IMG/VR virus record: IMGVR_UViG_3300043398_000035
Span: 1-24,165 of that record
Direction: 5' to 3' (one strand)
DNA from: a virus
DNA: 24,165 nucleotides
This document shows positions 1,236 to 19,157 of the stretch, piece by piece. Both the position numbers and the translations under genes were made by a program. The first letter of the stretch is position 1; each line of letters begins with the position of its first letter. The notes under the pieces were generated by a model, which was not told where the DNA came from, ran no database searches, and worked only from the letters and a program-made list of their open reading frames with translations.

Positions 1236-2626
1236 TAACGGTTTCCTTTCATAGCTGTTAGTAATAAATCTTGTACGTCGCGTTTCGTTTCGCGCCTAGC
1301 GATAACCAGTTCATCTATCGTGTCGCGTGCGATAATGTTATGCAGAAATACGGGCCTATTGAACCCCGCTTGCTTTTGACGCACTGGCCCAATGCGTTCG
1401 ATAATTTGCTGGTATTCCTCAAGGTTCCACCAATGCGAAAAGAAAGCCAGTATGTTGCCCCCGCTCTGTAAATTGAGGCCGTGACCGGCGCTTGCAGGGT
1501 GAGCGAATAGCAGTTGTATCTTGCCATCGTTCCAGTCTTTGACAGTTTGCGGATTAGTATCGAGAGTTCGCGCTTTCGGAAATGCACGTGTAAGCCGCTC
1601 AAGATCGCTCTTAAAATGATAGGCAACAAGTATTGGTGCACCACTACTTTCCTCGATAATACCTTGCAATGCCTGAATTTTTGCGTCATGTACTTCAAGC
1701 CATTTTTTGTTAGTGTTTTCGGTAGCCTCCCCGGCGGCATAAATCGCCCCACTTGCCAATTGCAAACACTTGATCGTTTTACTAGCAGCGTTGAATGCTT
1801 CAATTTGGTTATCTCCTATTTCAATGAATAATTCTTTTTCCATTTCCTTATACAGCGCGCGGGCTTTCGGCGGCAGTTCAACATAAATATTATTTACTAT
1901 GGGTTCATCTAAATTAAAATAATCCTTTGCATCGATGGTTAAACATACATCTTTGATCTTCGCTTCGATTTGTTCGCGCGCAAATGGCAGTGGTTCGTAC
2001 CCGTAACCGTTCCACGTTGGCCGAAAGTAGCGTTGGGTAAATGCAGTGAACGATCTACCTAACCGTTGGCCGCCGTCGATAAACCACAGTTGGCCCCATA
2101 AATCCAGCAACCCATTCGGTGCGGGTGTACCGGTTAAGTTAACCCAACGATCAACATATTTGTGCGCAACCCTTGCCAGTGCACGAGTACGTTTACCGCC
2201 TTGCATTAACCTGAAACTCTTTAACCGCGTACTTTCATCGGCGATCACTGTACCGAATGGCCAGCTATCGCCTAAGTATTCAACCAACCACGGCAGGTTT
2301 TCGTAGTTGCAGGTATACACATCGGCTTTAATTTTCAATGCAGCTTCGCGTTCTTTAGGCGAACCGATGATCTTAGATAGCGTTAAGTTTTTTAAATGTT
2401 TCCATTTCTTTTGTTCATCGGGCCACACGTCGTTGGCCACACGCAATGGGGCCAGAATCAACACCGGCTTTTCTAATTCAAGCGCAAATAAAATATCAAG
2501 CGCCGTATAAACACAAACGGTTTTACCCAACCCCATGCCCGCGAAGATACAACACCGTGGTTTATCTAACACAAAGTTAGTAATCAACGGGCCGTATTCG
2601 CGGGGCGTGTAGTCTATGGTTTGCAT
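1235..2626 (-). CDS. SNF2-family DEAD-box-like helicase
   Basis: A 463-aa superfamily 2 ATPase of the phage SNF2 type, acting on duplex or branched DNA in replication or recombination. Seen motifs: Walker A GMGLGKT (30-36), LAPLRVANDVW (motif Ia region, 58-68), Walker B DES (130-132), motif III LTGTP (164-168), and near the C-terminus motif VI as ERIGPVRQKQ followed by an IARDTIDE stretch. Length and start (Y-x-P-R-x-Y-G before Walker A) fit compact phage SNF2 helicases that lack accessory chromatin domains. The ATG has only a weak SD (AAAAAGA) and lies inside the 3' end of the VRR-NUC gene (13-nt overlap), so it is likely coupled to it. The VRR-NUC/SNF2 pair is a common neighbourhood in phages with a family A polymerase. 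The exact substrate is unknown. Confidence 0.95.
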   Translation of the reverse strand: MQTIDYTPREYGPLITNFVLDKPRCCIFAGMGLGKTVCVYTALDILFALELEKPVLILAPLRVANDVWPDEQKKWKHLKNLTLSKIIGSPKEREAALKIKADVYTCNYENLPWLVEYLGDSWPFGTVIADESTRLKSFRLMQGGKRTRALARVAHKYVDRWVNLTGTPAPNGLLDLWGQLWFIDGGQRLGRSFTAFTQRYFRPTWNGYGYEPLPFAREQIEAKIKDVCLTIDAKDYFNLDEPIVNNIYVELPPKARALYKEMEKELFIEIGDNQIEAFNAASKTIKCLQLASGAIYAAGEATENTNKKWLEVHDAKIQALQGIIEESSGAPILVAYHFKSDLERLTRAFPKARTLDTNPQTVKDWNDGKIQLLFAHPASAGHGLNLQSGGNILAFFSHWWNLEEYQQIIERIGPVRQKQAGFNRPVFLHNIIARDTIDELVIARRETKRDVQDLLLTAMKGNR

Positions 2627-3006
2627 ATCTTTTTATAATTGCTGATATGCGGTTCAGCACTTAGTATCGCGTTGATAATATTTTCTGTGTGGTAACTGTT
2701 TAATTCGTCCATAAGATTGTCGTACCATTTGTACCACTTATCAACCTTACTTTTGTGGTCAAACACCAACACAACAAAGCCGAGTTTACGCAAACGTTCA
2801 TGTTCTCTATACTGCGCATCGGTTGGTTCTTCGCCGGTTTCTTTTAATTCTGCGAAACGAAAGAAAGCCATAGGTAAAAATAATTGGCGATCTGGTACGT
2901 TGTTGCGCTGCGGGCTTTTATATTTCGGCGCTAACCCACTACGGACAGTTGTTTGTTTTACTAAGTGGGTTTCAACTACCGATTCCCTTTCGTGTTCTAA
3001 TTCCAT
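2614..3006 (-). CDS. VRR-NUC domain nuclease
   Basis: A 130-aa stand-alone VRR-NUC (virus-type replication-repair nuclease), PD-(D/E)XK fold. The catalytic pattern is visible: VPDR with D39, then AELK with E53 and K55, then Q65 in TDAQ; E12 in the first helix may complete the site. The C-terminal GFVVLVFDHKSKVDKW segment matches the last strand and helix of the family. Members of the family, including that of eukaryotic FAN1 and phage versions, cut branched or flapped DNA; in phage the role is probably replication-intermediate processing. A clear SD (AAGGGG, 5 nt spacer) precedes the ATG. After residue 98 a tail of about 30 residues has no known motif. Confidence 0.93.
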   Translation of the reverse strand: MELEHERESVVETHLVKQTTVRSGLAPKYKSPQRNNVPDRQLFLPMAFFRFAELKETGEEPTDAQYREHERLRKLGFVVLVFDHKSKVDKWYKWYDNLMDELNSYHTENIINAILSAEPHISNYKKICKP

Positions 3007-3008
3007 TA

Positions 3009-3227
3009 CTACCCCTTAATATAATAAGCAACACGAATAGCAAACCAGTATAAAGCGATGAAGCCCTTAACCAGCTTGATACCGGTAAGTGTTACGCCGT
3101 TATCGGTTGGTGCACCGGGTTCCGCTGCGGTGGTGTCGTAGCACAAACCCGCTGATATTTCGCGCCAACCTTTTTCAAACAACTTAAATTCAAACTGAAC
3201 CCGTTTTATCCTGACTATCTTTTCCAT
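3009..3227 (-). CDS. small protein with C-terminal hydrophobic segment
   Basis: Unrecognised 72-aa protein. I chose the ATG at 3227 because AAAGGGG stands 7 nt before it; the longer frame from 3287 has no better signal and would overlap the previous gene much more. The N-terminal two thirds are polar (MEKIVRIKRVQFEFKLFEKG start); the last part (about 51-69) is a hydrophobic aromatic stretch ending in YYIKG, which could be a tail anchor in the inner membrane. It overlaps the 3' end of the next upstream small membrane gene by 38 nt. Function unknown; it is one of three tiny membrane-type genes in this part of the replication cluster. Confidence 0.68.
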   Translation of the reverse strand: MEKIVRIKRVQFEFKLFEKGWREISAGLCYDTTAAEPGAPTDNGVTLTGIKLVKGFIALYWFAIRVAYYIKG

Positions 3228-3417
3228 TTTGTACCCCTTTAAAAGTTCCCATAATTTTGTCACTGGCCCATTGTGAAACCACGACAAACCCCAACCAGAA
3301 AATACATACTGGCATAGCTACTATCATACCCACTAAAAAGAACGGGCAAAATATTACCATCAAAGTGATCGCTTTCGCGCGCTGCCACTTGTTTAACTTT
3401 TTCAACTTAACATGCAT
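3190..3417 (-). CDS. small membrane protein (75 aa)
   Basis: The ATG at 3417 has a strong SD (AGGAG, 8 nt spacer), which decides against the upstream ATG at 3444 that lies inside the previous gene. Residues 1-15 are basic (VKLKKLNKWQRAK); residues 16-47 are strongly hydrophobic and can form one long or two short membrane helices with a Gly/Pro break near 25-36. The C-terminal 25 residues are polar and charged. The basic N-terminus suggests it stays in the cytoplasm. I do not recognise a family. Its place among replication genes argues against a lysis holin; membrane-acting early proteins such as superinfection-exclusion or host-takeover factors are possible alternatives. Confidence 0.72.
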   Translation of the reverse strand: MHVKLKKLNKWQRAKAITLMVIFCPFFLVGMIVAMPVCIFWLGFVVVSQWASDKIMGTFKGVQNGKDSQDKTGSV

Positions 3418-3428
3418 TTTTAATTCTC

Positions 3429-3749
3429 CTATTTGTGTGGCCATTTAAAATCCGCGTAACCTCTACGCCAAGTAAACATAACGGTTTGATCGTCGCCTTG
3501 CGCAAAATCAACACCGCCATACGGTTCGGCTAACCGCTTAAGTTTATTATCGGGGTGCAACACATAACGTTTACCCAAATACGATATAGCCTTAGATAAT
3601 TTGTAGTAATATTTTTCTAAGTAACGTTCAGTGGTAAACAATTCTGCATCGCCTAAACAGCGCAGAATATTATTTTCATCCCAATAAAATAAACTGCATG
3701 AACCAAACACAAATTGTTTGTCGTTACTTTTAATTGTGAAAGATAACAT
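3429..3749 (-). CDS. hypothetical protein (106 aa)
   Basis: Unrecognised soluble protein, rich in aromatic residues (many Phe, Tyr, Trp) with predicted beta-strands at the start (FTIKSNDKQFVFGSCSLFYW) and a C-terminal MFTWRRGYADFKWPHK. No catalytic motif is visible. SD is AAAGGGG about 5 nt from the ATG. The start overlaps the TAA stop of the 42-aa membrane gene upstream (TAATG), showing tight coupling. No membrane helix is seen, unlike its neighbours on both sides. Confidence 0.75.
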   Translation of the reverse strand: MLSFTIKSNDKQFVFGSCSLFYWDENNILRCLGDAELFTTERYLEKYYYKLSKAISYLGKRYVLHPDNKLKRLAEPYGGVDFAQGDDQTVMFTWRRGYADFKWPHK

Positions 3750-3877
3750 TACCGCCCCTTTCTTCGTTTAACTTTCTTATTCATCAAACGGTTCAGATAC
3801 CATCGTTGCCCGAACACTGCTATAAGCACGATGATAATACCAACTACAACCATAGCCAATATAATATTGTTAATCAT
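3749..3877 (-). CDS. 42-aa single-pass membrane protein
   Basis: Short reading frame on the minus strand that exactly fills the gap between the polymerase stop and the 106-aa gene: its ATG overlaps the polymerase stop (ATGA) and its TAA overlaps the next ATG (TAATG). The product starts MINNIILAMVVVGIII, giving one hydrophobic helix (about residues 5-23) and then a strongly basic tail (RLMNKKVKRRKGR at the end). By the positive-inside rule the tail would face the cytoplasm. A weak purine stretch (GAAAAGA) precedes the ATG, so translation is probably coupled to the polymerase. No family is recognised. The perfect fit between neighbours is the main argument that it is real. Confidence 0.7.
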   Translation of the reverse strand: MINNIILAMVVVGIIIVLIAVFGQRWYLNRLMNKKVKRRKGR

Positions 3878-5997
3878 TCTTTTCGATACCTATAAGTTTC
3901 GTAACCACTCGCGGCCAGTGGCAACCCCTTGGCCCATACCGGATTGATGGTTAATACATTACCCAATGCTTCAGAATTAAATTCTTTACTGTCCGGTGCT
4001 TCCGATACCACTTCATCGTGCGATGTCAGGATGATCTTATACCCGCAGTTCTCAACGAATGGCATACGGGCTGCTATCACATCACGCGCCCCGGCTTGCG
4101 TAAAGTTTTCCGCTAACTTACCCCCGTAGGTGTACAACCGTTGCCAACGTTTAGTATATTGATTCTGGCCCATATACGATATCTTATTGTCTTCACCTAG
4201 CTGGATACCGGGGTAACAAAGCGAACGCCCTTTCGGTAGCTTTACCCTTAACCAAGAACCCATTTTCGTAATTTCAATTAACCCTACTTTACGCGTGCGG
4301 CCCGGATTCATTATCGCGTAGATCACTGCATCCTGTAAGTCTTTCCAAAACTGTACGATCTTCGGGTGCGCTCTGCGCCATAAACGCTTCAACGAATCGC
4401 AAGCGATATAAACATCACGTTCTAAGCCTAACGTTTGCTTCCGAGCTTCGGCCCATTTCCATGCGCGCGCGGCTTCGGCTAACACATCTTCAGGTATGTT
4501 GGGTAACGCTGCTTTGGACAACTTAACCAAATCCATTTTGTAAGTCATTACCATCGTAACGAATGCGCCAACCCCGCCTTCATAACCTAATGCCAGTTCT
4601 TGCACCTTACCTAATTGCCGTTGATCTTTAGTAATCGTTTCTATATCGACCGCAAATGATCTTGCGTAAGAAACATTATATAAGTCTGGCCCAGTGTCGT
4701 TATCGTAATCGCTGAACGCTTGTAGTTTCCAGTCTTCGCCCGCGAACCACGCGATCACACGCCCTTCGATGTTCGCATAATCCGATATGACTAGCTTCTT
4801 ACCTTTCGGTGCGATGATACAACCCCGTATTGCACTCGACGCTGCGGGCATAACCTCATCGTAAAACAAATCAATCGTGCCGCTTTGTATCGCTTCGATG
4901 GCAGCGGTGACATAGTGGGCTGCTTCCTCATCACTTACTTTTTCTTTCCCATACCAACGCGCAGCGGCTTCACGATCTAAGCGTGGTAAATTCTGCGGCT
5001 GGAAAACGCGACCGGCCCACCGGCCCGTTCTATTCGCGCCACAAAATTGTAACGTACCGCGCAATCTGCCGTCGCGTGACACACCATTAATAAGCGACTT
5101 ATATTTTGACGTGCTGGTAGTGGTCGCCGCTAACCTAATCTTTAATAACTCGCGCAACGTTTCCGGTAATTCTTCATCCCATATACGGGTTTCAAGTGTT
5201 GCTGCTTTCATATCCGGCAGTTCAACACCGTAAGATTCGACGATGTACTTTAAAAGTTTATCGCGTTGTGTCGTTGATTCCAGTTCGTTATCGGTTAATT
5301 CTTTAGTGCGCGCACCCAATATATCTTTAGCCTTAGCGACTGCTTCGAGCGCACTATTCGCAAAGTCTACGTCAACACACATACCACGATCATTAATTTG
5401 TTGGTCAAGATGCCACAACGCTAATTCTTCACCGTGGTAATTCCAATTCGGTATTTTCGATTCGACTGCACGCATGGCTGCTACGTCGATGATCGCGTAT
5501 TCTTTGAACTGTTCCCATTCTACCGGGTGCGTATGCCGCGTTGCGCGGCGAATCTTTTGGTTCGCAGGGCGCGGTACGCACAACAATTTAATCAACGAAT
5601 TACCGATCTTTTGTTTGCGTATATCTTGTTCGACTCTTAATATGTGACATAACTTTTCGAGCGCACCGGGTAAACCATGCATCATCGCTTTCACCATCAC
5701 ATCGTACCAACGCTTAACGTCGGTCTTAACCCGCAGGTTGGTTGAATTATTCAACACCGCGCGATCAAACATCGCGTTGTGGAATACTAATCGTATCTTA
5801 GGATTCTTTAACGCGCGTTCTAAGTCCGAAGGCATCGGTGCACCGGTGGTTAAATCCCAACACTTAACGGGTTCTTGGTTCAGCGCGTAAGCAAATAACA
5901 TCACTTCGCAATTCTCTGCGTAAGTATACGTGCCGTGCTTAATGGGTTTTTCACAGTAAGTTTCCGTGTCAGCCCATAATGTACCATCCCATTCCAT
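3874..5997 (-). CDS. family A DNA polymerase with 3'-5' exonuclease domain
   Basis: The replicative polymerase, 707 aa. The N-terminal proofreading domain has Exo I D10/E12 (ADTET), Exo II N74...D78 (HNAMFD) and Exo III Y167...D171 (YAIID), so all metal-binding acids are present. The polymerase domain has motif A with D406 (SDYANIEGR), motif B R460/K464/Y472 (RQLGKVQELALGY) and motif C H660-D661-E662 (SHDEVV). There is no 5' nuclease domain, as in T7-type phage enzymes. The residue aligned with E. coli Pol I Phe762 (four after the motif B lysine) is Leu468. There is no clear SD before the ATG, but ADTET lies only eight residues from the start, so the start is well fixed. DUF2815, VRR-NUC and SNF2 nearby form a known phage replication neighbourhood. 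Confidence 0.97.
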   Translation of the reverse strand: MEWDGTLWADTETYCEKPIKHGTYTYAENCEVMLFAYALNQEPVKCWDLTTGAPMPSDLERALKNPKIRLVFHNAMFDRAVLNNSTNLRVKTDVKRWYDVMVKAMMHGLPGALEKLCHILRVEQDIRKQKIGNSLIKLLCVPRPANQKIRRATRHTHPVEWEQFKEYAIIDVAAMRAVESKIPNWNYHGEELALWHLDQQINDRGMCVDVDFANSALEAVAKAKDILGARTKELTDNELESTTQRDKLLKYIVESYGVELPDMKAATLETRIWDEELPETLRELLKIRLAATTTSTSKYKSLINGVSRDGRLRGTLQFCGANRTGRWAGRVFQPQNLPRLDREAAARWYGKEKVSDEEAAHYVTAAIEAIQSGTIDLFYDEVMPAASSAIRGCIIAPKGKKLVISDYANIEGRVIAWFAGEDWKLQAFSDYDNDTGPDLYNVSYARSFAVDIETITKDQRQLGKVQELALGYEGGVGAFVTMVMTYKMDLVKLSKAALPNIPEDVLAEAARAWKWAEARKQTLGLERDVYIACDSLKRLWRRAHPKIVQFWKDLQDAVIYAIMNPGRTRKVGLIEITKMGSWLRVKLPKGRSLCYPGIQLGEDNKISYMGQNQYTKRWQRLYTYGGKLAENFTQAGARDVIAARMPFVENCGYKIILTSHDEVVSEAPDSKEFNSEALGNVLTINPVWAKGLPLAASGYETYRYRKE

Positions 5998-5998
5998 A

Positions 5999-6292
5999 TT
6001 AACCGGGCATTCTTAATCTGAAAATCGCACCGTTTTGTCGGATGCGTATCGCAATTTTTTCAAGCCGGATACACCAATGGATAATTTGTTTTGCTTTCCT
6101 ATCTAAGTCGTAGCTACCCGTACCGTAGACAGAAAATTCGCACACAAATTTATGCATCGCCTTGGCGTAGCAATAGGTATATCGTTCTTTAGTGTTGCCG
6201 CGTAGTGCGGCGATTAAATCTTGTTTGCGTCGGTATCTGATATTATTTCTATGTTTGTTTATGTTGTCTATGATCGCTTTGTTGGTTTCCAT
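5999..6292 (-). CDS. hypothetical basic protein (97 aa)
   Basis: Unrecognised, very basic, Arg/Lys/Tyr-rich and probably helical protein (for example NKHRNNIRYRRKQDLIAALR and IRLEKIAIRIRQNGAIFRLR). A nucleic-acid-binding role is plausible from charge only. SD AAAGGAAAAG stands before the ATG. The start lies inside the 3' end of the HNH gene (44-nt overlap), and the stop is 1 nt before the polymerase start, so it links these two genes. The long overlap suggests that the HNH gene extends into an older gene boundary. Confidence 0.65.
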   Translation of the reverse strand: METNKAIIDNINKHRNNIRYRRKQDLIAALRGNTKERYTYCYAKAMHKFVCEFSVYGTGSYDLDRKAKQIIHWCIRLEKIAIRIRQNGAIFRLRMPG

Positions 6293-10287: not shown

Positions 10288-12840
10288 ATGAGCAGTGAAT
10301 TCGCGCAACATGGCCGCACGCTATTAGCAAACGGCTACCTGATCGTACCAATAAAACCGGGTGACAAAGCCCCGGCCATTCCAGACTGGGTTAACGCCCG
10401 TATCCGACCTGACCAAGTAACCCAACCGGTGTTTGCTAATTTCGGAGTGGGTATCTTAACCGGTCAGGGTGATATTCCGCTGGCCGCTATCGATATCGAT
10501 ACCACCTTAAAGCCCTTGGCTCAAGGTTTCGTTAATTGGTGTACGGAAAACTTAGGCTTAACCTGCGAACGTGTGGGTAAAGCACCGAAACTACTTCTTG
10601 TATATCGGGCTGCCGATACCGGATACCGCAAAGCCACCGGTGCTTGGTTCACCGATAAAGATAATAACAAGCACCGTGTCGAAGTCTTAGGGCATGGCCA
10701 ACAGTTCGTCGCTTACCACATACACCCCGACACGAAGCAACCTTATAAGTGGGTTGATGTGTTCGGCGGCATCGAACGCTTTGAAGCCAGCGAATTGCCG
10801 ACTATTACCAGTGACCAAATCGAAATCGCTTTAAAACAATTTGAAGTGATGGCTGAAAAGTACGGATTAAAACGTGGTACGGCAAGCGTGGTTAGTATCC
10901 GGGCTGCGGCGGGCGCGGGTAGCGACCCGTTAGAAGATTTTGAACCGCCGATAGGGTTAGATATCGATGATGCACGCTTGATGCTAGTCGGCGTGGATAA
11001 CGAAGATTACGATTCATGGTTACGCGTCGGTATGTCGTTGCACCATGAGTACGAAGGTAGTGATGAAGCATTTGAACTATGGGATACGTGGTCAGAGGGG
11101 GCAAGCAATTATACGGGGCGCGAAGCGTTAGAAACCCGCTGGCAAGGTTTCGGTACTAAAGGCGGGCGGCCTGTTACGATTAAATGGTTGGTCAAGTTAA
11201 CCAATGAACAACGCCGCGTTGCTATCAAAGAAGAAAAGCTAATCGCATTAGATGAAGTGAAAGGCTTAATAAGTAACTGTACCAGTTCTATCGATTTGAT
11301 TAACGAGATTGCGCCGCTTGCGGGTTCGGCAGCCGGTACGGACTTAGCGATTAAAGTGGAACTGCAAGGTTTGATCAAAGCGCAGTTTAAGAAACTCACC
11401 GGTACAGCGTTACCGATTGCCGAATTAAAAACGGCGATGCAGTCAGGTTATCGTGCGCCGGTTGCCGAGCATCGGGCTAAACGTGCGCTAACCGAATTCG
11501 GTAATCTTGATAGGTTACTTGATAAATACGGTGATTCTTTAATGTATGTACCCGAAACCGACGCGTTCTATATGTGGACTGGTATTTATTGGCGTTGGTC
11601 ATCGATAGCTGAAGTTACTTTATTAGCTAATGAAATTATCCGTGCGTTGCCTAATGAATTAGAACACATAGAAGGGGATGCCGAACGCGCTAACTTTCTT
11701 AAATTCTGCGCTGCCAGCCAAAAAGCGCAAATGGTTAAAAACATGGTGGTGCTAGCTAAGAGCGACGTTAAAACCCTTACCCCGATTGACGAACTGGATA
11801 AAAAGCGGCACTTATTTGGTGTTGGTAACGGCGCGGTTGATTTGAAAACCGGCAATTTGCTGGCCCCCGACCCTCAACAATTTATTACGATTAACACCCC
11901 TGTTAGTTATTCTCCGCAATCTGAAGCCCCTTTATTTTTACAAACCCTTAGCGATGTGTTCTTTGACGATGTTGAACTGGTCGAATTTTTTCAACGTTTA
12001 GTGGGTTATTCCATTACCGGCAACCCTAAAGAGGACATTATCGTTATCCCGTTCGGCGATGGCAGTAACGGCAAATCGACAATATTAGGTGCGATACGCG
12101 AAGCACTGGGTAATCACGCTAAAACCGCTAGCAGTGACACTTTCTTAAGTGCAACGGGGCGTGGTGGCAATTCAGGTAACGGGCCGCGTGAAGATGTTTT
12201 GCGGCTTCGTGGCAGCCGGTTCGTATATGTGACTGAACCCGATGAAGGTAGCGAATTAAGAGAAGGGTTAATTAAGTGCATGACCGGCGGGGAGTCGATG
12301 CCAGCGCGCGGCCTATATTCAGTTAAAACAATTGAAGTCGAACCTACATGGGTAACGTTCATGCCGACCAACCATAGGCCCATAGTCAAGGGTGACGATA
12401 ACGGAATTTGGCGCAGATTATTGCCTATTCCCTTCGTTCGCAACTTTGAACTTGAAGAAAGTAAAGACCCGGCACGTGCTGATAAATTGCGGCGCGAGCT
12501 ACCGGGTATCCTGAAATGGTGCATTGAAGGTGCGGTTAAATACAACAAACAAGGTTTAGATACCCCAAAAGCCGTGGCTGAAGCGCGTAAAGAATACCGG
12601 GTAGACATGGATATTTTAGCGGGTTGGCTCGCAGAAAGTTGTGAATTGGACGCTAATTACTCAGAATCCAACGCGGCGTTGTGGCAATCATGGCGTGATT
12701 TTTCTTTGATGCATGGTGAAACGCGGTTCTTAAATAGCGCGCGTGCACTCGGTCGGCGCTTAGCGGTTCGCTTTAAACCGTACAGAAAGGCCGCTGAGCG
12801 TGGTTTCACAGGATTGCGCGTTAAAAAATCTGTTATATAA
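10288..12840 (+). CDS. primase-polymerase / SF3 (D5-type) helicase
   Basis: An 850-aa replication initiator. The N-terminal domain (about 1-190) is a bifunctional primase-polymerase: LLANGYLIVPIKPGDKAP opening, catalytic D69/D71 in AAIDID, and HRVEVLGHGQQFVAYHIHP near 127-145. A PriCT-like domain follows, with SWLRVGMSLHHEYEGSDEAF and a WQGFG end. Then comes a D5-type N-terminal part (VYVP/Y-M-W-TGIYWRW region) and a superfamily 3 helicase with Walker A GDGSNGKST (590-598), Walker B ending at VTEPDE (E650 region) and motif C with FMPTNHRP. It should synthesise primers and unwind the fork for the family A polymerase. SD is GGGGG upstream of ATG. It is on the opposite strand from the other replication genes, so its timing may differ from theirs. 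Confidence 0.96.
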   Translation: MSSEFAQHGRTLLANGYLIVPIKPGDKAPAIPDWVNARIRPDQVTQPVFANFGVGILTGQGDIPLAAIDIDTTLKPLAQGFVNWCTENLGLTCERVGKAPKLLLVYRAADTGYRKATGAWFTDKDNNKHRVEVLGHGQQFVAYHIHPDTKQPYKWVDVFGGIERFEASELPTITSDQIEIALKQFEVMAEKYGLKRGTASVVSIRAAAGAGSDPLEDFEPPIGLDIDDARLMLVGVDNEDYDSWLRVGMSLHHEYEGSDEAFELWDTWSEGASNYTGREALETRWQGFGTKGGRPVTIKWLVKLTNEQRRVAIKEEKLIALDEVKGLISNCTSSIDLINEIAPLAGSAAGTDLAIKVELQGLIKAQFKKLTGTALPIAELKTAMQSGYRAPVAEHRAKRALTEFGNLDRLLDKYGDSLMYVPETDAFYMWTGIYWRWSSIAEVTLLANEIIRALPNELEHIEGDAERANFLKFCAASQKAQMVKNMVVLAKSDVKTLTPIDELDKKRHLFGVGNGAVDLKTGNLLAPDPQQFITINTPVSYSPQSEAPLFLQTLSDVFFDDVELVEFFQRLVGYSITGNPKEDIIVIPFGDGSNGKSTILGAIREALGNHAKTASSDTFLSATGRGGNSGNGPREDVLRLRGSRFVYVTEPDEGSELREGLIKCMTGGESMPARGLYSVKTIEVEPTWVTFMPTNHRPIVKGDDNGIWRRLLPIPFVRNFELEESKDPARADKLRRELPGILKWCIEGAVKYNKQGLDTPKAVAEARKEYRVDMDILAGWLAESCELDANYSESNAALWQSWRDFSLMHGETRFLNSARALGRRLAVRFKPYRKAAERGFTGLRVKKSVI

Positions 12841-12847
12841 CAAAGGG

Positions 12848-12950
12848 ATGACGAATGACATTAGATACCCCCCTTTTTCCTAAAAGTCCTATAAGAATGA
12901 ATAATAGAGTTTTAGTGAAAATGACGTTTTTAAACGTCATTCGTCATTTT
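12848..12950. repeat. cluster of ATGAC repeats and palindrome
   Basis: Within about 100 bp lie five ATGAC-type units: ATGACG 12848, ATGACA 12855, ATGACG 12921, and inverted CGTCAT at 12935 and 12942. They make a 9+9-bp palindrome with 2-nt centre (12921-12940), an inverted pair AAAATGACG / CGTCATTTT (12918-12926 / 12942-12950) and a 12-bp inverted pair (12848-12859 / 12936-12947). This could be an operator array, a set of competing RNA hairpins, or a weak terminator (the palindrome is followed by a short T run only after 4-6 nt). Confidence 0.6.
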
Positions 12951-13034
12951 GCGAAGTTTAAGGATTTTACTTGCAAAAAATTACAAGTTGAAAAGGGCGG
13001 CGCAACACATGGCACAAAAAAGAACAAGCGATAA
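12855..13034 (+). CDS. possible small basic protein (59 aa)
   Basis: An open frame right after the primase-helicase, with AAAGGG 7 nt before the ATG. The product opens MTLDTPLFPKSPIR and is basic throughout, ending KKNKR; no domain is recognised. It overlaps the HTH gene (13009-13200) by 26 nt in another frame. The DNA it uses also contains the ATGAC repeats, so the frame may be incidental to a regulatory region. Being in a different frame from the primase, it could also be reached by frameshift, but no slippery heptamer was noticed. Confidence 0.35.
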   Translation: MTLDTPLFPKSPIRMNNRVLVKMTFLNVIRHFAKFKDFTCKKLQVEKGGATHGTKKNKR

Positions 13035-13200
13035 TTATAAGCGGGGCGAAGACCACCCACTTGCAAAATTTAGCAACCACGAAATCGAATTGATTCGGCA
13101 ATTGCGCGATGACGGTTTTAGTTATGGGGAAATCGCTAAAAAGTTCGACACGTCAAAAAGTACTATCCAACATATCTGCACATTTAAGCGCCGCATGTAG
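13009..13200 (+). CDS. orphan helix-turn-helix protein (63 aa)
   Basis: A small DNA-binding protein. After a polar N-terminus with RGEDHPLAKF it has HEIELIRQLRDDGFSYGEIA and KKFDTSKSTIQHI (about 27-60), a clear helix-turn-helix. The GEDHPLAK...EIxxIRxL...EIAxxFxxSxxTIxxI pattern is that of the domain often found at the C-terminus of phage HNH endonucleases, but no HNH part is attached. I chose ATG 13009, with AAAAGGG about 11 nt upstream; the frame's earlier TTG at 12949 has no SD. Lying directly before the terminase genes, it may act on the adjacent repeats or on the packaging site, or be the remnant of an HNH endonuclease. Confidence 0.72.
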   Translation: MAQKRTSDNYKRGEDHPLAKFSNHEIELIRQLRDDGFSYGEIAKKFDTSKSTIQHICTFKRRM

Positions 13201-13209
13201 TACGCATGG

Positions 13210-13234
13210 TTCAGTGTAGCGGTAATACACTGAA
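13210..13234 (+). other. 9-bp perfect hairpin before terminase small subunit
   Basis: TTCAGTGTA (13210-13218) and TACACTGAA (13226-13234) are exact inverted repeats around a 7-nt loop, ending 3 nt before the ATG of the terminase small subunit. The arms can extend weakly (ATG outside the left arm, CAT outside the right). The place where an SD should be is inside the stem, and no SD sequence is present. Possible roles: RNA structure controlling terminase synthesis, a protein operator, or part of the packaging recognition site. No T run follows, so it is not a normal terminator. Confidence 0.7.
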
Positions 13235-13237
13235 ATC

Positions 13238-13744
13238 ATGGAACCTAAACTTAACCCACGTCAAACGCTGTTCGTTGAAGAATACCTGAAGGATTTAAAT
13301 GCTACTCAGGCCGCCATCCGTGCGGGCTATAGCAAAGAATCTGCACATGCTATTGGCCCTGAGAACTTGGAAAAACCTGCTATCAAGGCTGCGATAAAAG
13401 CGGCCATAGACCGGCGCGCGGAAGCGGTTCAAATTGATGCGCAGTACGTTCTAAATGGGATTACCAAGCTAATTGATCGTTGCGAACAAGCTGTGCCGGT
13501 GTTCAACAAAGACGGCGAAGAAACCGGTGAATATACTTTTCAAGGTTCGGTAGCGATGAAGGGCTATGAACTTTTAGGCCGACACTTTGCGATGTTCAGT
13601 GACAAGTTGCAAATGACCGGTAAGGATGGCGGCCCCATTGAAATAAGCGAAGGGCAACGCGCTACCCGAATTTCTGTTTTATTTAAGCAAGCAAGGGAAC
13701 GCGCGGACAGCGAAGAAAAGCATAACGCGGATGATCTTTTGTAG
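13238..13744 (+). CDS. terS: terminase small subunit (Terminase_2 family)
   Basis: A 168-aa DNA-recognition subunit of the packaging motor. The opening LNPRQTLFVEEYLKDLNATQ and AAIRAGYS is the signature of the Terminase_2 (XtmA-like) N-terminal helix-turn-helix, which binds the packaging site. Residues about 60-130 are the helical oligomerisation part, and the end (ERADSEEKHNADDLL) probably contacts the large subunit. The ATG fits the family start but has no SD; instead a 9-bp hairpin lies just upstream. Its TAG stop overlaps the GTG start of the large subunit (TAGTG). Confidence 0.94.
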   Translation: MEPKLNPRQTLFVEEYLKDLNATQAAIRAGYSKESAHAIGPENLEKPAIKAAIKAAIDRRAEAVQIDAQYVLNGITKLIDRCEQAVPVFNKDGEETGEYTFQGSVAMKGYELLGRHFAMFSDKLQMTGKDGGPIEISEGQRATRISVLFKQARERADSEEKHNADDLL

Positions 13745-15294
13745 TGAACATTCCAGATTACACCACCCAAGAAATTTTAAAACTGCTTCCGTTCTTAACT
13801 GAAGACGAACGCATTGAATTAGATTCGTTGTTGCAGCTTGATACGTTGTTGTGGGTTCCGCAAGAAGGCCCGCAGTTGATGGCGTATGAATCCGACGCTG
13901 ATGTGGTGGGTTATGGCGGTGCAGCCGGTGGCGGCAAAACAGATTTAGCAATTGGTAAAGCGTTAAACAAACATCGCAAGGTTGCGATCTTTCGGAAAGA
14001 AGGTAAAGAGTTAACAGCAATCGTTGACCGCTTTGAAGAAATCTTAAGAACACGCGACGGTTACAACGGGCAAGATGGCATATGGCGTTTACCAAAACAT
14101 AAATTGCAAATTGAATTCGGTTCGCTTGCTAATCCCGGTGATGAAAGAAAATATCAGGGGCGGCCTAAAGATTTGTTGGTGCTTGATGAAGCAGCCAATA
14201 TGCGTGAGCAACAAGTACGATTCCTAATGGGGTGGGTGCGCTCAGTAAACCCAAATCAACGATGCCAAACACTGATGACGTTCAACCCACCGACTACAAT
14301 TGAAGGCCGCTGGATAATCGATTACTTCGCGCCTTGGCTTGATAAGAAATACCCGTTCCCCGCAGCGCCCGGTGAGATTAGATATTTTGCAGTGATCGAC
14401 GGTAAGGACTGCGAAGTTGAAGACGGTCAGCGATTTGAATACAACGGTGAGATTATCATTCCACAATCGCGCACGTTCATACCTGCGAAGGTTGGCGATA
14501 ATTTATTTCTACGTGATACAGGGTACATCGCAGTGTTACAAGCGTTGCCTGAACCATTGCGTTCGCAAATGTTATACGGCGACTTTACCGCCGGTATGAA
14601 AGATGATGTGTGGCAAGTGATACCTACGCAGTGGGTTGAAGAAGCCATGCAACGTTGGGTTAAGAAAGATATCAAGCCGACAATGGATTCGTTAGGTGTC
14701 GATATCGCACGCGGTGGCGACGACCAAACGGTGATCGCTAGAAGACATGGCAATTGGTTTGATGTGCCACTCAGTTATCCGGGCAAAGAAACCCCCGATG
14801 GCCCGATTACGGCAAGTTTAGTGATCGCTGCAACCCGTGATCGCGCACCGATACACATCGATGTAATCGGTGTGGGTTCATCCCCGTACGACTTCTTGAA
14901 GAAAGCGCAGCAATACGTTATCGGTGTGAACGTTGCCGAGAAACCAACGGCTACCGCAATCGGTGGTCGCTTAACGTTTATGAATCTACGCACTCAATTG
15001 TGGTGGCAAATGCGTGAAGCACTTGACCCCGCCAACAATCGTGGTATTGCGTTGCCACCCAACAAACAACTATTAGCTGAGCTATGCACACCGAAATGGT
15101 CGTTGCAAGGTTACTCGATTAAGGTTCAATCGCGCGAAGAAATCTACGATGAAATTAAACGCTCCCCGGACATGGCAACCGCTTATATCTTGGCGTTGAT
15201 CGATACGCCACGGGTTCACGAAGTGGACAGGGGTACGCGTGGTAGCGGCAACGTAGACTACGATGTGTATAAGATTCTTGACCAGAGGGATTAA
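13744..15294 (+). CDS. terL: terminase large subunit
   Basis: A 516-aa packaging ATPase-nuclease. ATPase: Walker A GGAAGGGKT (58-66), Walker B LLVLDE with D148/E149, and a TFNPP coupling motif near 178-182. RNase H-like nuclease: D320 in LGVDIARGGDD, D373 in HIDVIG, and D476 in RSPDMATAY, giving the three metal-binding acids. Start codon is GTG, overlapping the small-subunit stop, so production is coupled. The enzyme docks on the connector and cuts concatemeric DNA. The sequence alone does not show whether packaging is by cos ends or headful. Confidence 0.96.
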   Translation: MNIPDYTTQEILKLLPFLTEDERIELDSLLQLDTLLWVPQEGPQLMAYESDADVVGYGGAAGGGKTDLAIGKALNKHRKVAIFRKEGKELTAIVDRFEEILRTRDGYNGQDGIWRLPKHKLQIEFGSLANPGDERKYQGRPKDLLVLDEAANMREQQVRFLMGWVRSVNPNQRCQTLMTFNPPTTIEGRWIIDYFAPWLDKKYPFPAAPGEIRYFAVIDGKDCEVEDGQRFEYNGEIIIPQSRTFIPAKVGDNLFLRDTGYIAVLQALPEPLRSQMLYGDFTAGMKDDVWQVIPTQWVEEAMQRWVKKDIKPTMDSLGVDIARGGDDQTVIARRHGNWFDVPLSYPGKETPDGPITASLVIAATRDRAPIHIDVIGVGSSPYDFLKKAQQYVIGVNVAEKPTATAIGGRLTFMNLRTQLWWQMREALDPANNRGIALPPNKQLLAELCTPKWSLQGYSIKVQSREEIYDEIKRSPDMATAYILALIDTPRVHEVDRGTRGSGNVDYDVYKILDQRD

Positions 15295-18781: not shown

Positions 18782-18824
18782 GCGTATGCGTGGTTTTAGT
18801 AACGTGATGTAGGCTTAAGACAAT

Positions 18825-19157
18825 ATGAGCAATATTGACCCACTAGATTTAGACGCGATTAGTGAAGCGGCTGAGAAAGAACAGAAAGCTAAAAAGTTAA
18901 AGCAAGTTATTTGGCTTGATGATCTTAGGTGGGTGTTAACTGATAAGAGAGGCCGCCGCTTTATGTGGTGGCTTCTCAGTATCACCGGATTTTTTAAACT
19001 TAGTTATTCAGGTAACAACGACGAAACTAATTTTAATGAGGGTAACAGAAACGTTGGCTTGCAGTTGATGAACGGCATTAACCAAGCTAGCCCGGATAGT
19101 TACTCAGTGATGATGAAAGAACATTTAAAGGATGCCGAGAATGACAACGGAAAATAA
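18825..19157 (+). CDS. Bbp19-like protein
   Basis: A 110-aa protein resembling Bbp19 of Bordetella phage BPP-1: an acidic/lysine-rich start, then DLRWVLTDKRGRRFMWWLLS, GFFKLSYSGNNDETNFNEGN and RNVGLQLMNGINQASPDSY. Family function is not established; it is always in the head-gene block before the scaffold. The upstream SD is weak (AAGA). The end overlaps the scaffold start by 17 nt. Confidence 0.85.
   Translation: MSNIDPLDLDAISEAAEKEQKAKKLKQVIWLDDLRWVLTDKRGRRFMWWLLSITGFFKLSYSGNNDETNFNEGNRNVGLQLMNGINQASPDSYSVMMKEHLKDAENDNGK

Follow-up and report, generated by a model that had tools for sequence, protein, structure and literature searches.

The cI gene of phage lambda is a lysogeny gene. Its mRNA starts at the AUG and is translated without a Shine-Dalgarno sequence (PMC4965119). 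In phage Mu, the DNA-binding activator C is encoded by the phage itself, serves several late promoters together with host RNA polymerase, and has its site at or just upstream of the -35 position (PMC4461284). The late sigma factor of phage 7-11, SaPh711_gp47, uses phage-specific bipartite late promoters, from which transcription starts 6 to 9 bp from the element (PMC8948821). In phage T4, the genes e, soc, 49, and I-TevI carry inhibitory RNA structures, and the late transcripts of e and I-TevI, which lack the 5' strand, escape them (PMC3014915). Phage-encoded late activators or sigma factors and leaderless phage mRNA are already known; their combination would be the new part of the locus described here. 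A 63-amino-acid (aa) helix-turn-helix (HTH) protein with a box replacing the -35 element, combined with leaderless late mRNAs, was not found in the open-access literature among the matches listed.

The window, that is, the whole stretch of DNA that was analyzed, is an entire virus record of 24,165 bases. On the sequence comparisons given below, the start region of its terminase small-subunit gene, terS, is probably a late promoter that yields a leaderless terS mRNA and whose box is bound by an HTH protein encoded upstream. In the proposed mechanism, the HTH protein, encoded directly upstream of terS, would bind an 11- to 13-bp box (in the window, GTACGCATGGT) in place of a -35 element. Held at the box, host RNA polymerase would use the hexamer TACACT 15 nt downstream and start at the A of the terS ATG. 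A Shine-Dalgarno sequence would not be needed because the proposed mRNA starts at this ATG. Two further late genes of the window phage are preceded by the same box. A hairpin overlies the spacer, the putative -10 element, and the start codon; the leaderless mRNA would be without its 5' arm, and a read-through mRNA would have its AUG hidden. The comparisons themselves show the bipartite motif with its spacing, its clustering at gene starts on the late strand, the scarcity of Shine-Dalgarno sequences where the -10 element is 6 to 9 nt away, and the covariation between the HTH protein and the box. Transcription from this site, its activation and not repression by the HTH protein, leaderless translation, and any role of the hairpin are what we infer from the comparisons.

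Layout of the terS start region and recurrence of the box in the window

The HTH gene, terS with its hairpin, terL, the three candidate promoters, and gene 18825 lie on the plus strand. The HTH protein, a predicted late-gene activator, is encoded at 13009..13200 (63 aa; HTH_38 and HTH_7 in Pfam). The box GTACGCATGGT (13200..13210) is the proposed activator site at the -35 position of the putative terS promoter. It is followed by the -10 hexamer TACACT (13226..13231), which lies 15 nt past the box, a spacing also found in relatives, and 6 nt ahead of the ATG, giving the layout GTACGCATGGT-15-TACACT-GAAATC-ATG. The product of terS (13238..13744; 168 aa) belongs to Terminase_2 (PF03592, E 7.4e-25). 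The next gene, terL (13744..15294), encodes the large terminase subunit according to PHROGs, with 54.9% identity to that of Bordetella phage BPP-1 over 97% of its length, and the portal of the window belongs to the head-tail connector family PF12236 (Pfam). The window TerS looks mosaic: its C-terminal part (about residues 104-160) is the best-matching stretch in many BPP-1-like relatives, and its N-terminal Terminase_2 domain matches other phages.

The sequence-only reading had singled out terS as a gene without a Shine-Dalgarno sequence among head genes that nearly all have one, and had proposed that a hairpin replaces its ribosome-binding site. The absence is real, but terS is not alone in it: gene 18825 has none either, and terL (GTG at 13744) and gene 22287 are without an obvious one. 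The hairpin does not take the place of the ribosome-binding site. That place is occupied by the -10 box, so the absence of a Shine-Dalgarno sequence is partly forced, and the ATG is the predicted start of the mRNA. With the -10 element six nt upstream and a C at -1, the predicted start of the terS transcript is the A of the ATG at 13238. Transcription starts usually have this geometry, in which the -10 element ends six nt ahead of an A, a pyrimidine stands at -1, and a purine stands at +1. If this reading holds, it is also a warning that a conspicuous hairpin at an absent ribosome-binding site may merely lie over a promoter.

When up to two mismatches to the first box were allowed and TAnnnT was required, three sites were found in the window (13200, 15233, and 18784), all on the late strand, and none on the other strand; shuffled sequences gave a mean of 0.07, and none of 200 reached three. 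The second candidate late promoter (15233..15264; GTACGCGTGGT, 15 nt, TACGAT) lies in the 3' end of terL, is leadered, and stands ahead of gene 15297. The third (18784..18815; GTATGCGTGGT, 15 nt, TAGGCT) ends 9 nt ahead of the ATG at 18825. The gene behind it (18825..19157; phrog_528, function unassigned) stands just ahead of the protease gene 19132, and its place in the gene order equals that of bbp19 in BPP-1. Gene 15297, which has the longer leader, carries a GAGGG Shine-Dalgarno sequence, whereas the two genes with the -10 element at 6 to 9 nt, terS and 18825, carry none.

Boxes without the -10 requirement are common (five on one strand and four on the other; shuffle mean, 3.09), so the evidence rests on the box and the -10 element together. 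The 8-mer GTACGCAT, with one mismatch allowed, was not overrepresented in the window, which has 24 copies against an expectation of 25.6. Scored with a matrix that left the window out, the late-strand sites at 15233 (19.1), 18784 (13.3), and terS (10.2) rank first, third, and fourth on that strand, the terS score barely exceeding that of the best match on the other strand (9.4). A site in the early region, at 2023, scores 16.2 with this matrix and is probably a false match. A sigma-70 scan of 12600-14400 gave a single site, which lies on the other strand, and revealed no TTGACA-like hexamer, so the terS promoter would be weak unaided. Near relatives were also sought in viral_contigs with the window's own box plus TAnnnT; 66 stretches were obtained, and in only one of these (L330) was any of nine tested window proteins encoded; its box and its portal gene are on opposite strands.

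Candidate late promoters in relatives and in BPP-1

Loci were taken from TerS, TerL, and TerL-profile searches of viral contigs and bacterial genomes, plus phage records; the profile searches contributed the best 80 of 408 relatives in viral contigs and the best 80 of 152 in bacterial genomes. Three loci obtained with the HTH protein as the sole query were excluded from the evidence. TerL was found in 208 loci, and a small HTH protein was found at most 2 kb upstream of terL in 117 of them. Start regions that were exact duplicates were left out before counting, as were loci that lacked an HTH match or whose terS begins more than 60 nt away from the HTH stop; the terS start lies within this distance in 88 distinct start regions. 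For promoter-level counts, rows more than 75% identical in the promoter stretch were removed, and for covariation counts, loci with TerL more than 88% identical were removed. Redundant loci were retained in the strand count and in the counts of box and HTH co-occurrence.

In the ATG-anchored rows of 45 relatives (two rows, L076 and L088, were added to the alignment manually), a C stands at -1 in 80%, and an A/T-rich pattern runs from -12 to -7. A -10-like hexamer, defined by A at position 2 and T at position 6, ends at -7 or -8 of the terS ATG in 70% of 33 nonredundant relatives (45% when at least four of six positions had to match). The same position is occupied at 2% and 0% of 57 terL starts and at 8% and 5% of 635 other open reading frame (ORF) starts, these being ORFs of at least 150 aa that possibly include spurious ones. 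At offsets from -10/-11 to -19/-20 in the same 33 rows, the hexamer was found in 0 to 6%. The C at -1 of terS is present in 79% of the 33 relatives, compared with 19 to 38% at the comparison starts.

A 10-mer fitting GGTNCNCNTA lies exactly 17 nt ahead of the hexamer in 20 of 43 rows, and it moves with the -10 element, not with the ATG (-43/-11, -42/-10, -40/-8, and -39/-7). Among the other 23 rows, the spacing is 18 in 2, 16 in 3, 23 in 8, and 32 in 2; in the last 8, no hexamer near the ATG qualified. Where terS starts less than 12 nt past the HTH stop or overlaps it (30 nonredundant loci), a -10 element is present in 20% (3% with four of six matches) and a box in 10%. The loci with terS overlapping the HTH gene form a class (L121, L123, L124, L132, L139-L141, L147, L149, L152, and similar ones), in several members of which the box is confined to sequence downstream of terS, such as the terL 3' end. 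The late switch of these members may therefore sit further downstream.

A matrix trained on 24 terS sites (20 nonredundant) matched the 208 loci 135 times on the late strand and 8 times on the other strand. The late-strand matches fall at terS (42, including 22 of the 24 training sites), in the terL 3' end (52), further downstream (34), inside terL (3), and far upstream (4), so that 86 of them (52 + 34) are at places outside the training. Two of the relatives deserve a separate remark. Caulobacter phage SR18 (L111) has an annotated 2,078-base repeat region (2447-4524) reaching from inside terS to just past terL, which is possibly relevant to packaging in the group. Limnohabitans phage DC33 (L108; PQ492659) is filed under Inoviridae yet encodes a tailed-phage-like terminase large subunit, probably a taxonomy error.

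For 84 nonredundant matches with a gene behind them, the start was chosen that, at up to 64 nt from the -10 element, gave the longest ORF. The distance from the -10 element to the start is bimodal: 6 to 9 nt in 50 cases, 10 to 19 nt in 3, and at least 20 nt in 31. A Shine-Dalgarno sequence of at least 4 nt precedes 5 of the 50 starts in the 6- to 9-nt class and 19 of the 31 in the class of at least 20 nt (p=1.9e-6). ATG is the start codon in 96% of the former and 74% of the latter, and C or T stands at -1 in 48 of the 50. The mRNAs of terS and of several other late genes are predicted to be leaderless, with the 5' end at the start codon.

The late block of BPP-1 (Rauchvirus) shares its gene order and the form of its promoters with the window, but the box differs (GGGTGCCCGTGCC versus GTACGCATGGT), and so does the recognition helix of the HTH protein. 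The 13-mer GGGTGCCCGTGCC occurs in four identical copies in BPP-1, all on the late strand, where 0.32 would be expected with one mismatch allowed. The boxes precede the late genes terS, bbp24, bbp19, and bbp9, and the distances from the -10 element to the start are 6 nt (start at 26255), 7 nt (24092), 6 nt (20708), and 27 nt (6125), respectively. On the minus strand of BPP-1 (L276), the late promoter box of terS lies inside the annotated gene (bbp26); because the start at 26255 sits 6 nt past the -10 element, the annotation, which begins at 26318, is probably 63 nt too long at the 5' end. The fourth box (6125-6186, minus strand) is nested with a terminator-like hairpin that has 12-bp arms and a T run. 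Its -10 element lies in the loop, and therefore a single element may serve both to end one late unit and to begin the next. No description of BPP-1 late promoters or of a leaderless terminase mRNA was found in the titles and abstract starts of the matches listed from the open-access literature, subscription papers being mostly outside this scope.

The HTH protein and its box

In the AlphaFold model (mean pLDDT, 72.9), the HTH protein has helices at residues 23-35, 39-46, and 50-57. The recognition helix comprises residues 50-57 (KSTIQHIC), and the two residues that covary with the box, Q54 and H55, both fall in this third modeled helix. Comparison with PDB and by Foldseek gave generic HTH matches only (best Foldseek E, 0.16; best phmmer E, 0.0033, for 8cwy_A).

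At a score of at least 13, the box is present in 80 of the 117 HTH-positive loci, 37 being without a box at this threshold, and in none of the 67 HTH-negative loci with more than 1,300 nt upstream. The 12 remaining box-bearing loci are contigs that have at most about 600 nt of sequence ahead of the terL match. The presence of the HTH protein correlates with phylogeny; however, the box contrast holds at a TerL identity of at least 55%, where 70 of 96 HTH-positive loci and 0 of 11 HTH-negative loci with more than 1,300 nt upstream have a box (Fisher test, 2.8e-6, uncorrected for kinship).

With TerL distance removed, the partial Mantel correlation between helix and box is r 0.13 (p=0.006, n=54), and it is r 0.16 (p=0.0018, n=51) when only boxes away from the HTH gene are used. 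The N-terminal half of the protein, taken as a control, had no association with the box (p=0.53 and 0.43). That the correlations are small reflects the many uninformative positions in the helix, and two residues carry most of the signal. Residue 7 of TSKSTIQHIC pairs with its base as R-G in 17/17, Q-A in 8/8, H-T in 2/2, and G-G in 7/7, followed by A-G in 10/12, W-G in 3/4, K-G in 2/3, and D-A in 1/1. Residue 8 pairs as D-G in 17/17, K-C in 15/17, and R-A in 7/11, with four cases of others; among these states, histidine, which is the window's own, pairs with two bases (C in three cases and G in two). Arginine with G and glutamine with A are classical contacts.

The same two residues were followed through 31 disjoint sister pairs. 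For residue 8, the base was constant in 15 of 15 pairs with a constant residue and changed in 9 of 16 with a changed one (p=0.0008); for residue 7, it was constant in 9 of 10 and changed in 12 of 21 (p=0.020). The test covered 110 helix-by-box cells, of which these two had been preselected by the earlier covariation count, and two others fell below 0.05 (0.043 and 0.032).

The small HTH protein thus appears to recognize the box, and we infer that it activates the late genes. For the BPP-1-like phages as a group, we lean toward a late switch of a kind not described before. In this switch, an HTH protein of 60 to 100 aa would replace the -35 contact and read its box through a two-residue code (R-G, Q-A, and H-T; D-G, K-C, and R-A). 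Late mRNAs would start at the AUG of terS and of other genes, and some terS starts would be hidden by a hairpin on the read-through mRNA. Because box and recognition helix would have changed together between lineages, the late promoters would be private to each phage.

The hairpin, alternative readings, and known systems

The hairpin is present as it was first described: TTCAGTGTA (13210-13218), the loop GCGGTAA (13219-13225), and TACACTGAA (13226-13234) are followed by ATC and then by the ATG at 13238. The 9-bp arms are perfect, the loop has 7 nt, and 3 nt separate the hairpin (13210..13234) from the start codon of terS. RNA folding gives a stem longer than these arms (13205-13240, one bulge, -17.3 kcal/mol, z -2.05), with 5 of 200 shuffles folding as well, so that on read-through RNA the terS AUG is itself paired. 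An intrinsic terminator at 13210-13234 was considered and rejected, since the scan gave no terminator-like site and the stem is followed by ATCATGG, not by a U run. A second perfect 9-bp repeat (12920-12941), which is terminator-like, lies in the gap 12841-13008 ahead of the HTH gene and is nested in a longer imperfect repeat (12848-12888 / 12907-12947). The palindrome by itself is weak evidence. A stem of at least 9 bp was found at 0.5% of displaced control positions (27 loci, window included), so the hairpin is unusual for this position. No perfect stem of at least 9 bp was found between -80 and +20 in the 49 TerS relatives examined of 64, the longest having 8 bp, and Rfam gave no match at the gathering score. 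RNA-fold z-scores differ modestly between terS starts past the HTH gene end and terL starts (57 versus 84, p=0.017).

On the predicted promoter, the hairpin would be either incidental or a lock that hides the AUG on read-through mRNA. We give about even chances to a fortuitous overlap of the palindrome with the promoter, without a role of its own. The window has three perfect 9-bp inverted repeats with loops of 3 to 12 nt against a mean of 1.47 (standard deviation, 0.92) in 30 dinucleotide shuffles and is therefore not clearly above chance; half-sites of the arms are at chance level elsewhere in the window (8 with at most one mismatch, 4.43 expected, 12 of 100 shuffles reaching 8), and the exact 21-nt core was not found in viral_contigs. 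Enrichment in relatives is weak or absent: conservation of the arms is not significant across the terS promoters as a set, with a -10-anchored mean stem of 4.13 versus 4.00 in controls (p=0.29; 31 nonredundant promoters). Chance fits less well with the ATG-anchored stem test (p=0.003, n=27; p=0.02 without the window), with the fact that two of the three perfect repeats lie in 205 nt of noncoding DNA beside the HTH gene, and with leaderless promoters beyond terS, where the mean stem around the -10 element is slightly in excess (p=0.02, n=34), although stems of at least 6 bp are not (p=0.24); leadered promoters had no excess (p=0.64, n=41). As for the lock, the sequence-only reading had suggested that the element keeps terminase low until needed, and what is left of this idea is a tentative addition to the promoter: on read-through mRNA, pairing of the terS AUG would block translation, and the leaderless late mRNA would escape. 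In the window, the AUG has an unpaired probability of 0.00 to 0.02 on read-through RNA with 40 to 228 nt upstream, and leaderless RNA folded over 100 nt leaves A, U, and G unpaired at 0.99, 0.69, and 0.58. Start hairpins of different sequence are present in some relatives, with 12 bp and the ATG within the stem in L205, GGGCGC-TACAGT-GCGCCC in L070, and GCGCGCA-AAAC-TGCGCGC in BPP-1; the inhibitory structures of T4 e, soc, 49, and I-TevI provide a precedent (PMC3014915). Besides the nonsignificant result for the terS promoters as a set, the lock has against it that the AUG is less than 10% unpaired on read-through RNA in only 5 of 35 loci, window included. Moreover, the leaderless AUG is on average 30% unpaired when folded over 80 nt instead of 100, which makes the leaderless fold length-dependent.

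The remaining alternatives concern the box and its protein. The box is near-palindromic (GGTRCGCRTACC) and could hold a dimer across the promoter, and the HTH gene adjoins its own box in the manner of an autoregulator; repression of these promoters by the HTH protein, with the box as operator, is nevertheless improbable, as the box takes the -35 place in a stretch of the window with no TTGACA-like hexamer and the matches concentrate at gene starts on the late strand. A sigma-like nature of the HTH protein, as a substitute for region 4 of sigma-70 or as part of a sigma exchange, instead of a classical activator, is likewise improbable. The bipartite promoters of the phage 7-11 sigma factor (GTAAtg-16-aCTA, start 6 to 9 bp off) look similar (PMC8948821), and a PHROGs sigma-factor family is among the weak HTH matches (E 1.3e-4). 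However, the 63 aa with three modeled helices would not accommodate a further part for reading the -10 element, and the -10 element resembles the host consensus. Packaging sites lie at terS in many phages, and the location would suit a pac or cos site recognized by TerS, as had also been proposed for the hairpin. We regard this as very improbable: the conserved element that abuts the hairpin recurs at late genes, in three places in the window and four in BPP-1, and it covaries with the HTH protein. The proposal of a protein-binding element survives in part, in that a control element with a likely protein partner is present; the likely partner, however, is the HTH protein encoded upstream, acting on the box next to the hairpin, and not TerS.

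The reading as a late promoter with an HTH activator offers a testable answer to how late genes may switch on in the BPP-1 group, which are model phages for diversity-generating retroelements. If true, dozens of phages would together offer a natural code of protein-DNA recognition, leaderless mRNA would have an unusual use in an essential late operon, and gene starts could be corrected, such as that of BPP-1 terS with its probably overlong annotation.

The proposed system has a likeness to each of the four described ones. It resembles Mu C in that a phage-encoded activator would serve several late promoters from a site at -35 (PMC4461284); unlike in Mu, the box lies at a fixed 15 nt from the -10 element, and leaderless mRNA is predicted for several late genes. 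With phage 7-11, it shares bipartite, phage-specific promoters upstream of late genes; the 7-11 system relies on a sigma factor with an aCTA element, whereas the window would use a 63-aa HTH protein and has a -10 element near the host consensus (PMC8948821). T4 gene e, whose late promoters give mRNA minus the 5' part, has its start region hidden on the long early mRNA (PMC3014915), as the window's terS may have on read-through mRNA. In contrast to T4 e, the late mRNA of the window is predicted to be leaderless and without a Shine-Dalgarno sequence, and conservation of the hairpin among relatives is not significant. Finally, the mRNA of lambda cI begins at the AUG, as is predicted for terS in the window (PMC4965119), but here the predicted leaderless gene is the first of a late operon.
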